Assembly: GCA_016933635.1 (NCBI GenBank)
Contig: JAFGAP010000201.1
Span: forward strand, 1 to 35,602
Reading direction: 5' to 3'
From: Kosmotogaceae bacterium
GTDB lineage: Bacteria; Thermotogota; Thermotogae; Petrotogales; Kosmotogaceae
DNA length: 35,602 bases
Positions 1,160 to 6,120 of the stretch are shown in pieces; within the stretch, counting starts at the first letter, position 1; every line of letters begins with the position of its first letter. Both the position numbers and the translations under genes were made by a program. Below the pieces are notes generated by a model. That model saw only the letters and a list, made by a program, of their open reading frames with translations. It was not told the origin of the DNA and ran no database searches.

Positions 1160-2539
1160 TTGTCGAAATGTTGTTTATCTTTATTGATGCTTATCATACC
1201 ATTAATGGTTCTGGGAAGCACGGGTTTGCACGTGATTCTTTCACCTTCATTATCTCTTGATAATATTCCCTCTGTCGCGAGCAACTACGAGCCTGATTAT
1301 GAAGATCTAGACAGGTATATGCAGATTCCGGCGATCTTTTCGGGGGGGCTGGAGATAGCGTTCGGTAATTCGAAATTGTACGTGAATATGGACTTGAGAC
1401 AGGAGTTCTCAGATTACCTGATGGGAGACTGCTTCAGCAATCTACCACTCTCCACGACTTCCTTTCTGCCGGCCGTTGATATGAACTTTCCCAGACTTGG
1501 TTACTTCGAACGGAGGGGTTCAAATTCATTCATATCGTTGGGAAGAAGAAAGCTGGGCCTTGGAATTTCATCATACAGCTTTGTACTCTCAAATTACCTA
1601 CCGTATTTTGACCATCTGTGGATAGAGCTGAACGGAGAGGCAAAATCGGGTGAGTATATTTATGATTTCTTCGCGGTATCTGCCGACAGAACGATAAGCG
1701 GCGGGCCGAAGACTCTTTTGGGTCATCGATTCTGTTATATGAACGACAACTTGAAAGTCGCGTTCGGTGAGGAGAATCTTGTTTATGGTGCCTATCCCGA
1801 TTTGCAAGACCTGGGACCGTTCTTGATTTACCACCATACCTATCAAAGCAACTCAAATGTTACTGCCACAATTGCATCAGAGGTTAAGCTAAGCGATGTA
1901 ATAGCATACGGAGAGTTCACACTTGATGACTTCAGACTTGCATCGGAGGGCGAGAATTCAAATCCAACGGCATTTGGCTGGGTCGCGGGTTTTCTCTGGA
2001 GAATTTCCGATGGTAATCCATATTCTGGACTGAAATTGAATGAATCAGAGCACGAAATAAGAGACAAGACTCTTCTGCAAGACGGTGGCCTCAGAGTCAG
2101 GATGGAACATTACCATTCCACCACATATCTCTACAACAGGGGAACAAATATTGGAAAGTTTACATATCCCTACAGGTTTAATGTCTTACATCTAGATTCT
2201 TGGCCCGTTATCACAGGGTTTTTCGGATTTCCCTACGGACCCGATTCTACGCTCACTCTGATTGGCATAGAATATGAGAGCCGGAGTGTTTCGTTGAAAA
2301 TCGCTGCGGAACTGCTGCGAATAGGTTCAATCACAATCAGCTCTCCATATTCGCCACCCTTCGATACAGAATGGTACGGACCGAAGAAACCGATAACCAC
2401 CTCTTTCATTCTGACTGGAGAGGGTTTTTATGCAGCAAATCAAAATACAACTCTCTTCGTTGCCGGTAAACTGACCTTTTCCAAGAAGGTTGATTTCTGG
2501 ATAAATATTGGTTTTATTAGAATGTTTTCACTACTATAG
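1160..2539 (+). CDS. Putative secreted/envelope beta-barrel protein (Wzi-like), paralogue of the next gene
   Basis: ORF track 1151..2539; TTG at 1160 preferred because the SD AAAGGGGGTG (1145-1153) covers the 1151 GTG; N-terminal signal peptide; shares blocks with the next ORF (GHRF, PDLxDxxPFxIxHxTY, aYGExxxDD). Confidence 0.65.
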   Translation: MSKCCLSLLMLIIPLMVLGSTGLHVILSPSLSLDNIPSVASNYEPDYEDLDRYMQIPAIFSGGLEIAFGNSKLYVNMDLRQEFSDYLMGDCFSNLPLSTTSFLPAVDMNFPRLGYFERRGSNSFISLGRRKLGLGISSYSFVLSNYLPYFDHLWIELNGEAKSGEYIYDFFAVSADRTISGGPKTLLGHRFCYMNDNLKVAFGEENLVYGAYPDLQDLGPFLIYHHTYQSNSNVTATIASEVKLSDVIAYGEFTLDDFRLASEGENSNPTAFGWVAGFLWRISDGNPYSGLKLNESEHEIRDKTLLQDGGLRVRMEHYHSTTYLYNRGTNIGKFTYPYRFNVLHLDSWPVITGFFGFPYGPDSTLTLIGIEYESRSVSLKIAAELLRIGSITISSPYSPPFDTEWYGPKKPITTSFILTGEGFYAANQNTTLFVAGKLTFSKKVDFWINIGFIRMFSLL

Positions 2540-2552
2540 GGAGGTATCACCG

Positions 2553-4184
2553 ATGAAGAAGTTTACCTTGCTTCTGTTCTTTACACTGGTAGTGGCAGTT
2601 TTTGGCAGTCAGGGAACTTTGATGTTCAAGGGCACAGATCAATACAACTTGTTTTTGGGCAGAAACCTGATTGATGGAAGAACTCTCTTTACTGCAAATA
2701 CGGCAATTCCAGAGGGATTTGCTTCAGTTCAGGTAGAACAGCCTACGGTAAAGACCGCGGCCGGTACGGGCATTTTCCTCCAAGTCACTCCGCAGTTCTT
2801 GATACATAATTTCGAACCCTTCAAGCAAAAGGGGTGGTTGCAATCTGTTGTCCCTCTTTATTTGAGGTATCGGTACGATACTTTGAAGCCATGGCTTGTG
2901 CTGGGGTTTGAGAGCGAAGTATCAGACAATATCACGGGCTTCATAAATCTCGACATCCCGAAAGACTACAGAAGCTACATCAGTCACGGTGATAACTTTG
3001 ATTCGAAGCCGTATATGAATTTTCCAGTAGAGCTTTTTGAGGGAAAACTCGAGGCGCTCGATATGAGCTGGCCAACATTCGGTTATGTATCCTATGCTAG
3101 CAATAACTTCTATGCTTCTCTGGGTAGGTACAAGGTGGCCTGGGGGCCTATGAGAAATGGATTCACGATAAGTGATGCATCATCGTATTACGATAACATC
3201 TCTTCTTCATACACTACGCCTCTCTGGAAGAAAGGCCGTTTTACCTATTCTTTTCTGGTTATAACCCCGACTTCGCTCCTGAACGACGAGGAGTGGGTGA
3301 AACAGGGAAAGGTGTGGGATCTGAACCAGAGAAGGCCTTACACCGAAGGAGCGAAGACTATCATTGGACATCGTTTCGATGTTCAGTTTTCGACATGGGG
3401 GAGGTTAGGGGTAGGAGAGCTTAACGTCGTTGGAGGGAAACATCCCGATCTGAACGATGCCAATCCATTCATAATCTTCCACAATACATACGGCGAAGAT
3501 TTCTCCAACGTCATGGCATCGCTTGACTTTTCTCTTGTTCCTTTCAAGGGTATCGAGCTCTACGGAGAAATCGCCATAGATGATGTTTCTTTCGGTTCTA
3601 CTGAGGCCGGAGCTCGGGGCAAACCAACGGCGCTGGCTTATGGTGGTGGTCTTAGATACGCAATGGACATTAAGGGAACGCTGCTCCTTGCCTCCGTAGA
3701 GCTCTATCACACTGACACGTGGATGTACAATCGCTGGCAACCGCTTCTCACATTCACAAACAGAATCTACACTAAGTCAGAGCTACCCGGAAGCAGGGAT
3801 TTCACAGATTATCCGCTGGGATTCAAGTATGGATCTGATCTCAATGGATTCTCGATAATGGCTAATGCAATAATGACCAATGGGCTTTCAATCTCCTTTG
3901 TATATGAACACTTCAAACAGGGAGAGGTTACTCTGAAAACCCCGTACTTGAACATGGAAGAACCGGAGGACGACCCCGGTGAATTTACGGCCCCTGAAGA
4001 CTGGAGCGGGCCAGTTGGTGAAACTGTTATTGCTAACATTTTGAAGCTCAATGTGATGATCCCTTACCGGAACTTTACATTCGGAAGCGACTTCTCTCTT
4101 TATTTTGGAGATTATTTCAAGAAGAACGGAGGGTATGAGAAACTGATTTTCGAGATCAGACCTTATCTGTCCTACGTCTTCTAG
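2553..4184 (+). CDS. Putative secreted/envelope beta-barrel protein (Wzi-like)
   Basis: ATG 2553 with SD GGGAGG at 2539-2544; signal peptide MKKFTLLLFFTLVVAVFGS; aromatic-rich alternating strands; ends in SYVF (C-terminal Phe typical of barrels). Confidence 0.7.
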   Translation: MKKFTLLLFFTLVVAVFGSQGTLMFKGTDQYNLFLGRNLIDGRTLFTANTAIPEGFASVQVEQPTVKTAAGTGIFLQVTPQFLIHNFEPFKQKGWLQSVVPLYLRYRYDTLKPWLVLGFESEVSDNITGFINLDIPKDYRSYISHGDNFDSKPYMNFPVELFEGKLEALDMSWPTFGYVSYASNNFYASLGRYKVAWGPMRNGFTISDASSYYDNISSSYTTPLWKKGRFTYSFLVITPTSLLNDEEWVKQGKVWDLNQRRPYTEGAKTIIGHRFDVQFSTWGRLGVGELNVVGGKHPDLNDANPFIIFHNTYGEDFSNVMASLDFSLVPFKGIELYGEIAIDDVSFGSTEAGARGKPTALAYGGGLRYAMDIKGTLLLASVELYHTDTWMYNRWQPLLTFTNRIYTKSELPGSRDFTDYPLGFKYGSDLNGFSIMANAIMTNGLSISFVYEHFKQGEVTLKTPYLNMEEPEDDPGEFTAPEDWSGPVGETVIANILKLNVMIPYRNFTFGSDFSLYFGDYFKKNGGYEKLIFEIRPYLSYVF

Positions 4185-4216
4185 AAAGAACGTTACTCCT
4201 GTAGATGTCCTAATAG

Positions 4217-4247
4217 AAAGGGGCGGGTTGTTTCCCGCCCCTTTTTA
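4217..4247 (+). terminator. Rho-independent terminator
   Basis: GGGGCGGG TTGTTT CCCGCCCC TTTTT, perfect 8-bp GC stem and U-tract after the stop at 4184. Confidence 0.9.
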
Positions 4248-4253
4248 ACAAAG

Positions 4254-4400
4254 CTAAATGAAGCCAAATACAAGAAATCCTATTAGGAATCCGATTATCA
4301 GTCCTAAAATCAGTCCTCTTGTGAATCTGTCGGTTCCTCGGGATGGTGTTTTTTCCTGTTTTTGGCTCTCTTTGTACCAGTCTCTATCGTAGATTCCCAA
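4254..4400 (-). CDS. Small glycine-zipper single-pass membrane protein (48 aa) with MGIYDRDWY N-terminus; overlaps the AI-2E gene out of frame
   Basis: TTG at 4400 preceded by SD AAAGGAG about 10 nt upstream and an in-frame TAA two codons upstream; translation MGIYDRDWYKESQKQEKTPSRGTDRFTRGLILGLIIGFLIGFLVFGFI*; below the 60-aa ORF-track cutoff. Confidence 0.7.
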   Translation of the reverse strand: MGIYDRDWYKESQKQEKTPSRGTDRFTRGLILGLIIGFLIGFLVFGFI

Positions 4401-5401
4401 TTGTTACCACTCCTTTCATTGAGAACGAAGTCCATCCAGTACCTCTTTATGAATATCAGAATTGGGACTGCAAAAACAACTCCAAAGACGCCCAGCAGTT
4501 CACCGAAGCCTATTATCGATACCAGAACGATGAACCAGTTAATCTTAACTCTGTTCGATAAGATTTTTGGCGAGAGGAACCATATCTCGATCTGGTTGGC
4601 GAAAACTAGCAGCACGATTGCTCCAACAACACCCCAAAGTCCTTTGCTTACGAAAGAAAGCACGATCATAGGAATTGACGTAACTACCACACCAAGATAA
4701 GGGATGAAATTCGTTATTCCCGCTAACAAACCAAGGAAAATCGCATTGGGAACTCCAAGAATAGCCGATCCTACTGCGATTATTGTACCGACAACAAGCG
4801 CAATTATCAGCTGACCGCCAATGTAGGTCTGAAAATCCTTGTACAACGAATGAAAGAAGCTGCTCACCTTATCCTGATTACACCCGGGAAAGAGTATGGG
4901 AACGCTTTTCTGGATCATATTGGTCTTTCTTGCGATTACGAAACCTGCAATGATTAGCAGGACAACACCTGTAATCCATGAAGTGATGTTTGAGGCAACG
5001 TATTGACCAATCATAATTGCCGCGTCACTCAACCATTGGGAAGCGCTCTCGACTATGTCGACTATCGCTTCAGAAATGAATGGGGGAATCTTCTCCAGCC
5101 ACTTGTCGAACGTACCGTCATTGAAAAGAGAGTCTAGCTCCAACGAAAGGCTTCTAACCCCCTTAATGGTTATTGGAATTGCGCTGTAGATAAGGAAGAA
5201 CATAAATGATAAAAGAGCTGTGCCGGTGATTATATTTAGGGCTCCTCTTGGAATCCTTCTGGTGACAAACTGCGCCGGTGTGTTGATAATTAGCGAGAAT
5301 ATAAAGGCCAGTCCGAGAACCCTTGAGGTCATAGGAAAGAGAAAGAGAGTCATGAATACTGCTATGAAATATCCGAGAACCCAGAACTTTGTTTTCTTCA
5401 T
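4310..5401 (-). CDS. AI-2E family transporter (PerM-like permease)
   Basis: 363 aa, multi-TM; conserved YIGGQLIIALVVGTI..., NFIPYLGVVVTSIPMI, FGVVFAVPILIFIK; SD GGTGGAGGG before ATG. Confidence 0.9.
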   Translation of the reverse strand: MKKTKFWVLGYFIAVFMTLFLFPMTSRVLGLAFIFSLIINTPAQFVTRRIPRGALNIITGTALLSFMFFLIYSAIPITIKGVRSLSLELDSLFNDGTFDKWLEKIPPFISEAIVDIVESASQWLSDAAIMIGQYVASNITSWITGVVLLIIAGFVIARKTNMIQKSVPILFPGCNQDKVSSFFHSLYKDFQTYIGGQLIIALVVGTIIAVGSAILGVPNAIFLGLLAGITNFIPYLGVVVTSIPMIVLSFVSKGLWGVVGAIVLLVFANQIEIWFLSPKILSNRVKINWFIVLVSIIGFGELLGVFGVVFAVPILIFIKRYWMDFVLNERSGNNWESTIETGTKRAKNRKKHHPEEPTDSQED

Positions 5402-5475: not shown

Positions 5476-6120
5476 ATGAAAAGAGTATATATTATCCTGA
5501 TAGTCTTTTTTGTTATTGCACTTGTTTCATTTGGCTCGACACATTCCTCAAGGATGATGACTCCTGGATCTGTTAGAGCGATGGTTGGTTTCAAAGATAT
5601 CGGACTGAGGATTGGAATTCTTCCTTTTCTTGAAGCCGGTTGGTTCATTGATGAAGGCCCTTACTTCACAGTAGGCTACGATAGAAACTTTCATTTTGCT
5701 TCCCGCGTTTCCTTCTCTTCGCTTCAAGAAGCGCGAGTGATTGCGGAGTTAGGATATGATTTCGACGTTGTTTATCTGGAGGTTGGAGGGCTTTATGAGT
5801 ATGCAGCTCCCGATGCCTCGTTTCTCGGTGGGCAACTGAAGGCGGAAGTGTTCTTCGATAATGATCTGAGCATTATCAACGCTACCCTGGGCAGGTTTCA
5901 GAAGGTTGCGGGCGATACCCAGAAGCAGAGTTTTACCTCTGTGGGATTTTCCGCCAGACGAAGACTGGAAATTGGAAAGCAGTTTTACTTCATAGATCTT
6001 GAAAGTGTTGAGCTTGTTGGTACATTAAAATGGGAGATAAAGGACGACCTCTCTTCCTTCAGCCCATTTCCCGCGTATAGTTTTGTGGGAATCCAGCTTA
6101 ATCTGGGGTTCCTAAACTAA
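5476..6120 (+). CDS. Secreted hypothetical protein, possibly a small beta barrel
   Basis: Signal peptide MKRVYIILIVFFVIALVSFGS; SD GAGGTG; alternating beta pattern. Confidence 0.65.
   Translation: MKRVYIILIVFFVIALVSFGSTHSSRMMTPGSVRAMVGFKDIGLRIGILPFLEAGWFIDEGPYFTVGYDRNFHFASRVSFSSLQEARVIAELGYDFDVVYLEVGGLYEYAAPDASFLGGQLKAEVFFDNDLSIINATLGRFQKVAGDTQKQSFTSVGFSARRRLEIGKQFYFIDLESVELVGTLKWEIKDDLSSFSPFPAYSFVGIQLNLGFLN

Follow-up and report, generated by a model that had tools for sequence, protein, structure and literature searches.

A conserved small membrane-protein gene of the Kosmotogaceae bears an N-terminal tag that recurs on other bacterial and phage proteins

In this report, we find that an overlooked open reading frame at positions 4254-4400 (minus strand) of the window, i.e. 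the whole 35,602-nt stretch of Kosmotogaceae DNA that was analysed, is, judged by its conservation among relatives, a genuine protein-coding gene of this family. Aligned orthologues of its 48-residue product share one invariant part, the N-terminus, M-[GS]-I-Y-D-R-D-[WY]-Y. These nine residues recur almost unchanged in different phyla on membrane proteins without other detectable similarity, proteases and phage proteins among them, which implies a specific recognition step; that step has so far not been named in the open literature that we searched. We propose, with a probability of roughly 0.55 for the reading as a whole, that the small protein is a single-pass membrane protein that presents a cytosolic docking motif to a conserved partner. 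The observation made in an earlier, sequence-only reading was correct; its suggestion of a partnership with an AI-2E family transporter finds no support, and its suggestion of a docking tag is strengthened. The tag is of more interest than the open reading frame. The latter becomes a testable single-copy gene of the Kosmotogaceae, and a peptide with the sequence of the tag offers a means to fish out the putative receptor.

The small gene and its product

The gene runs from a TTG start codon (4398-4400, minus strand) to a stop codon at 4254-4256. A single codon (CAA) separates the start from an upstream in-frame TAA (4404-4406, minus strand), and a Shine-Dalgarno sequence, AAAGGAG (4410-4416, minus strand), is positioned with a 9-nt spacer to the TTG. 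When rechecked on the sequence, the coordinates, the translation, these signals, the 91-nt overlap with the AI-2E gene and the glycines G29, G33, G37 and G41 were all as first described. The tag, MGIYDRDWYK (residues 1-10; 4371-4400, minus strand), is supported by invariant alignment columns and by its occurrence on unrelated membrane proteins. Both the sequence and AlphaFold2 point to a C-terminal transmembrane helix at residues 29-48 (4257-4316, minus strand), which includes the four glycines; in the AlphaFold2 model, the helix spans residues 22-47, with a pLDDT of 91 across residues 31-40, and residues 3-15 form a weak, low-confidence helix. The positive charges ahead of the transmembrane helix suggest that the N-terminus lies in the cytosol. 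Searches of Pfam, NCBIfam (above cut-off) and PADLOC with the 48 residues returned no family match, and no defence or toxin family was found. A search for PDB homology yielded nothing for the tag and transmembrane-only noise for the profile of the small protein.

Between the small gene and a convergent gene lies a GC-rich hairpin of 11 bp (4217-4244; -22.7 kcal/mol, z = -4.45) that is probably a bidirectional terminator. Because it follows the stop codon of the small gene, the AI-2E transcription unit probably ends with that gene. A weak Rfam match to Termite-leu RNA at 4214-4275 on the plus strand (27.2 bits against a gathering threshold of 51) probably reflects just this hairpin, and no RNA element above Rfam thresholds was found where the small gene and the AI-2E gene overlap.

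A search with the 48 residues against 61 relatives (E down to 1e-25) identified orthologues with the same start position in seven of ten congeneric genomes, that of the window included, as well as in four additional genera of the same family (g2-g5). These orthologues retain the frame, the start position, an upstream Shine-Dalgarno-like sequence and the C-terminal transmembrane helix. The TTG itself holds only within the genus of the window (g1); the other genera use ATG. The gene is single-copy and sits in a conserved neighbourhood. A profile search of 103 Thermotogota genomes revealed no convincing orthologue beyond the family, the distant matches with E > 0.003 having been discarded as transmembrane-only. 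Possible exceptions are genome G053, itself a row of the profile, which encodes a short-tagged protein that starts MDRDYYKE and is flanked by different genes, and G043, with a weaker match. In the same 103 genomes, a relaxed pattern for the N-terminal tag gave 13 matches, one per genome, and each of them is the small gene of a family member.

The pattern of substitutions also bears the mark of a coding sequence. We counted variable columns by codon position in the seven sequences from the window genus. Beyond the overlap with the AI-2E gene, variable columns number 6/17, 1/18 and 17/18 at codon positions 1, 2 and 3, respectively; thus, 17 of 18 third positions vary against 7 of 35 first and second positions (Fisher p = 1.6e-7). 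For the first 13 codons, the corresponding figures are 0/13, 1/13 and 6/13 (Fisher p = 0.003). The third position of the small frame is there position 2 of the AI-2E frame, and the excess at third positions thus points to constraint by the small frame on the tag region and to change in the overlapping tail of the AI-2E protein. Within the overlap, where the sequence-only reading had proposed a test for constraint, the signal is present in these 13 codons and absent from codons 14-31, i.e. the linker (p = 0.37). Together, the orthologues and the codon-position bias support a real gene for a small membrane protein. The alignment shows no variation at M1, D5, R6, D7 and Y9 and almost none at I3 and Y4; the tag is kept while the linker and the transmembrane helix diverge, with overall identity as low as 31-45%.

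Relation to the AI-2E transporter gene

The upstream neighbour of the small gene encodes an AI-2E family transporter (4310-5401, minus strand; PF01594, E = 4e-39, residues 11-320 of 363). The shared stretch, 4310-4400, comprises the last 91 nt of that gene and falls outside the Pfam domain. The small protein had been proposed as a translationally coupled partner or regulator of the permease; on this explanation, it would be an accessory subunit made from the same mRNA that binds via the glycine face of its transmembrane helix. The small gene does lie directly 3' of the AI-2E gene in g1, g3, g4 and g5, the two share a terminator position, and the overlap is present across the whole window genus. 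Further, two members of that genus without the small gene (G003 and G008) also lack a close AI-2E orthologue.

The wider family argues against this explanation, and from the sequences we consider a dedicated AI-2E partner unlikely. A dedicated accessory protein should always accompany its transporter, but both genomes of g2 (G010 and G014) retain the small gene alone. There, the locus reads Wzi-like gene, small gene, beta-barrel-like gene, TetR gene, without an AI-2E gene; genome-wide, only a distant, longer paralogue is found. The absence of an AI-2E orthologue is likely but not proven, given that both genomes are drafts of 90-93% completeness. Because g2 keeps the small gene without AI-2E, the small gene is not tied to that transporter. 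Conversely, G006 lacks the small gene but encodes an AI-2E homologue, set among different genes. The overlap itself measures 91-94 nt in the window genus; it shrinks to 77 nt in G015 and to 14 nt in G011. In G013 there is none, and in G012 the two genes stand 356 nt apart. Given this variation, any coupling by way of the overlap would be no more than a feature of the genus. Finally, tagged proteins in other phyla have neighbour genes that differ from those of the small gene.

In size, in its one transmembrane helix and in the location of its gene near a transporter, the small protein is reminiscent of MgrB-type single-pass regulators (PMC10576120). It differs in that no sequence relation to them is known and in that its gene is retained without the adjacent transporter.

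Other genes of the neighbourhood deserve brief mention. The 214-aa product of 5476-6120 (plus strand) has no Pfam match, and a similar gene adjoins the small gene in g2 too. The adjacent genes at 1151-2539 and 2508-4184 (plus strand) probably encode outer-membrane beta-barrels, the second of them Wzi-like and just under the Pfam cut-off (PF14052).

The tag on other membrane proteins

The sequence-only reading had named a motif, M-G-[IL]-Y-D-R-D-[YW]-Y, as shared with rhomboids and other membrane proteins, and a pattern search bore this out. The degenerate coding pattern M-[GSR]-x-Y-D-R-D-[YWC]-Y-x matched 19 viral contigs and, in the genome collection, at least 117 loci, against about two expected. 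In 136 translated matches, residue 2 is always G or S and residue 8 always Y or W, though the DNA pattern permitted R and C. A transmembrane-like stretch is present in 132 of 133 tagged proteins of at least 40 residues, with a median start at residue 24. The matches listed fall into 21 BLAST groups, across several bacterial phyla, without detectable similarity beyond the tag, which is all that "unrelated" denotes here; some of these groups are probably the same gene by synteny, and BLAST can miss homology between short bodies. Among the matches listed, the largest group consists of 92 rhomboids, and others comprise small proteins of the Desulfurobacteriaceae (mostly behind cysS), proteins of Clostridia and phage proteins. 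In Dechloromonas the tag heads a TIGR02281 retropepsin-like protease, and in Treponema an SH3 protein. Unanchored tag matches in 24 carrier genomes were N-terminal in almost all cases. Four loci of the Desulfurobacteriaceae (L098, L141, L160 and L167) have a tagged single-pass gene of 47-58 aa directly after cysS, touching it or nearly so.

Each carrier genome checked encodes one tagged protein; the exception is Tepidimonas, where a phage region is present in two copies, and a second match in Treponema is internal. The notion of a shared docking tag therefore holds in that the tag is common to lineages, but not in the sense of a marker on many proteins of one cell, which we reject for the genomes checked.

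In the viral contigs, freeing position 2, or allowing Y4 to become F or D5/D7 to become E, added no matches; dropping positions 9-10 gained phage proteins with MGxYDRDWW, along with false YDSD-type matches. In planctomycete-type genomes, dropping the same two positions gained rhomboids whose ninth residue is L, T, A or S, together with a single protein of the Bax1-I/YccA family. The latter (L291; PF01027) starts MGLYDRDYM, a relaxed form of the tag. We propose the name "YDRD-tagged membrane proteins" for proteins with an N-terminal M-[GS]-x-Y-D-R-D-[WY] and a transmembrane segment downstream, a group to which the 48-aa protein belongs. The tag may have come to several phyla through convergence or through common descent, both of which fit. 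In the open PMC set, neither YDRDYY nor YDRDWY occurs in any paper; a description elsewhere or in other words is possible.

The planctomycete-type rhomboids with DUF6576 (PF01694 plus PF20216) bear the same tag ahead of their first transmembrane segment. They differ from the small protein in being multi-pass proteases with conserved Ser/His. DUF6576 is excluded as a common receptor, being absent from the Kosmotogaceae genomes tested and from other carriers.

Proposed role of the tag

On the docking reading, the 48-aa protein would be inserted in the inner membrane by a single pass, with its N-terminus in the cytosol. M-[GS]-I-Y-D-R-D-[WY]-Y would then be a short linear motif that docks onto a conserved partner, either intracellular or membrane-bound. 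The linker and transmembrane helix would keep this motif at the membrane. A rhomboid model built from 47 tagged sequences is consistent with such a role: the tag has a pLDDT of about 52, against more than 90 for the body, although it is among the most conserved columns of the alignment (partly by construction, the rows having been chosen by the tag). A segment that is conserved yet predicted with low confidence suggests that it is not packed on its own protein and binds another molecule, an argument drawn from one prediction method and limited alignments.

Some results sit less well with docking. With a single tagged protein in each genome checked, a one-to-one interaction or a self-contained role is as plausible as a hub; position 9 varies in some carriers, as the planctomycete rhomboids demonstrate; and the tag is patchy, with few genomes of the sampled phylum of G103 carrying it (4 of 294 by the strict pattern, 10 of 149 by the relaxed one). 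We put forward only tentatively, as less probable than not, a broader version in which the tag is an N-terminal cytosolic address signal with a receptor shared across phyla, carried by one protein of variable body per genome and copied by filamentous phages. As to the partner, our guess, which would be wrong more often than right, is membrane-protein quality control, with machinery of the FtsH type. It stems from the tag's presence on rhomboids and a retropepsin-like protease, and from the relaxed variant that heads the Bax1-I/YccA-family protein. In E. coli, YccA is among the substrates of FtsH, which recognises it by the N-terminal tail.

Another possibility is that the tag has no protein receptor at all and serves as an aromatic and charged N-terminus that either lies in the membrane interface or determines how the protein inserts and which topology it adopts. 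The tag is always N-terminal and shortly ahead of a transmembrane segment, and the low-confidence helix predicted for residues 3-15 would suit this role. Interface or topology signals, however, normally tolerate conservative changes, and the failure of the F, E and position 2 relaxations to add matches in the viral contigs therefore makes a receptor-free tag improbable.

In two genera, the glycine run probably contributes self-association as well. G-x3-G-x3-G-x3-G is complete in g1 (all seven members with the gene) and in g2; three of its glycines are left in g3, two in g4 and one in g5, so that even G-x3-G-x3-G is not conserved family-wide. An oligomeric glycine-zipper peptide, channel-like or membrane-active in the manner of a toxin, is an improbable explanation: the four-glycine run and the glycine zippers of EsxX, a membrane-depolarising toxin (PMC12744356), speak for it, but the glycines decay in g3-g5 while the tag persists, the gene is single-copy in a conserved neighbourhood, and no toxin or defence family matches.

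As a short terminal signal on unrelated proteins, the YDRD tag resembles GlyGly-CTERM, the partner of rhombosortase (PMC3237569). GlyGly-CTERM, however, is a C-terminal processing signal with many-to-one pairing, whereas the YDRD tag is N-terminal, usually occurs on one protein per genome and has no known processing enzyme.

The phage carriers include PHROG 13107 and PHROG 35657, inovirus small membrane proteins of unknown function with the same tag, a single transmembrane segment and a similar size. The 48-aa protein matches PHROG 13107 (E = 2.9e-4) over residues 1-17 of 48, i.e. the tag, rather than over most of the profile, and we do not count it as a member; some of the phage genes, moreover, lie just 3' of a Zot/pI ATPase gene. 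A tblastn search of annotated phages with one inovirus tagged protein found nothing. Eight inovirus-like contigs or loci (the viral contigs L225, L231, L233, L235, L237 and L240, also L150 and L158) encode a tagged single-pass protein of about 58-65 aa that belongs to PHROG 13107, on the same strand as, and shortly downstream of, a Zot/pI-type ATPase frame. L150 and L158 lie about 5.7 kb apart on one contig of Tepidimonas alkaliphilus, where the same tagged gene occurs twice, each time with the same Zot-like gene; this duplication suggests tandem filamentous prophages.
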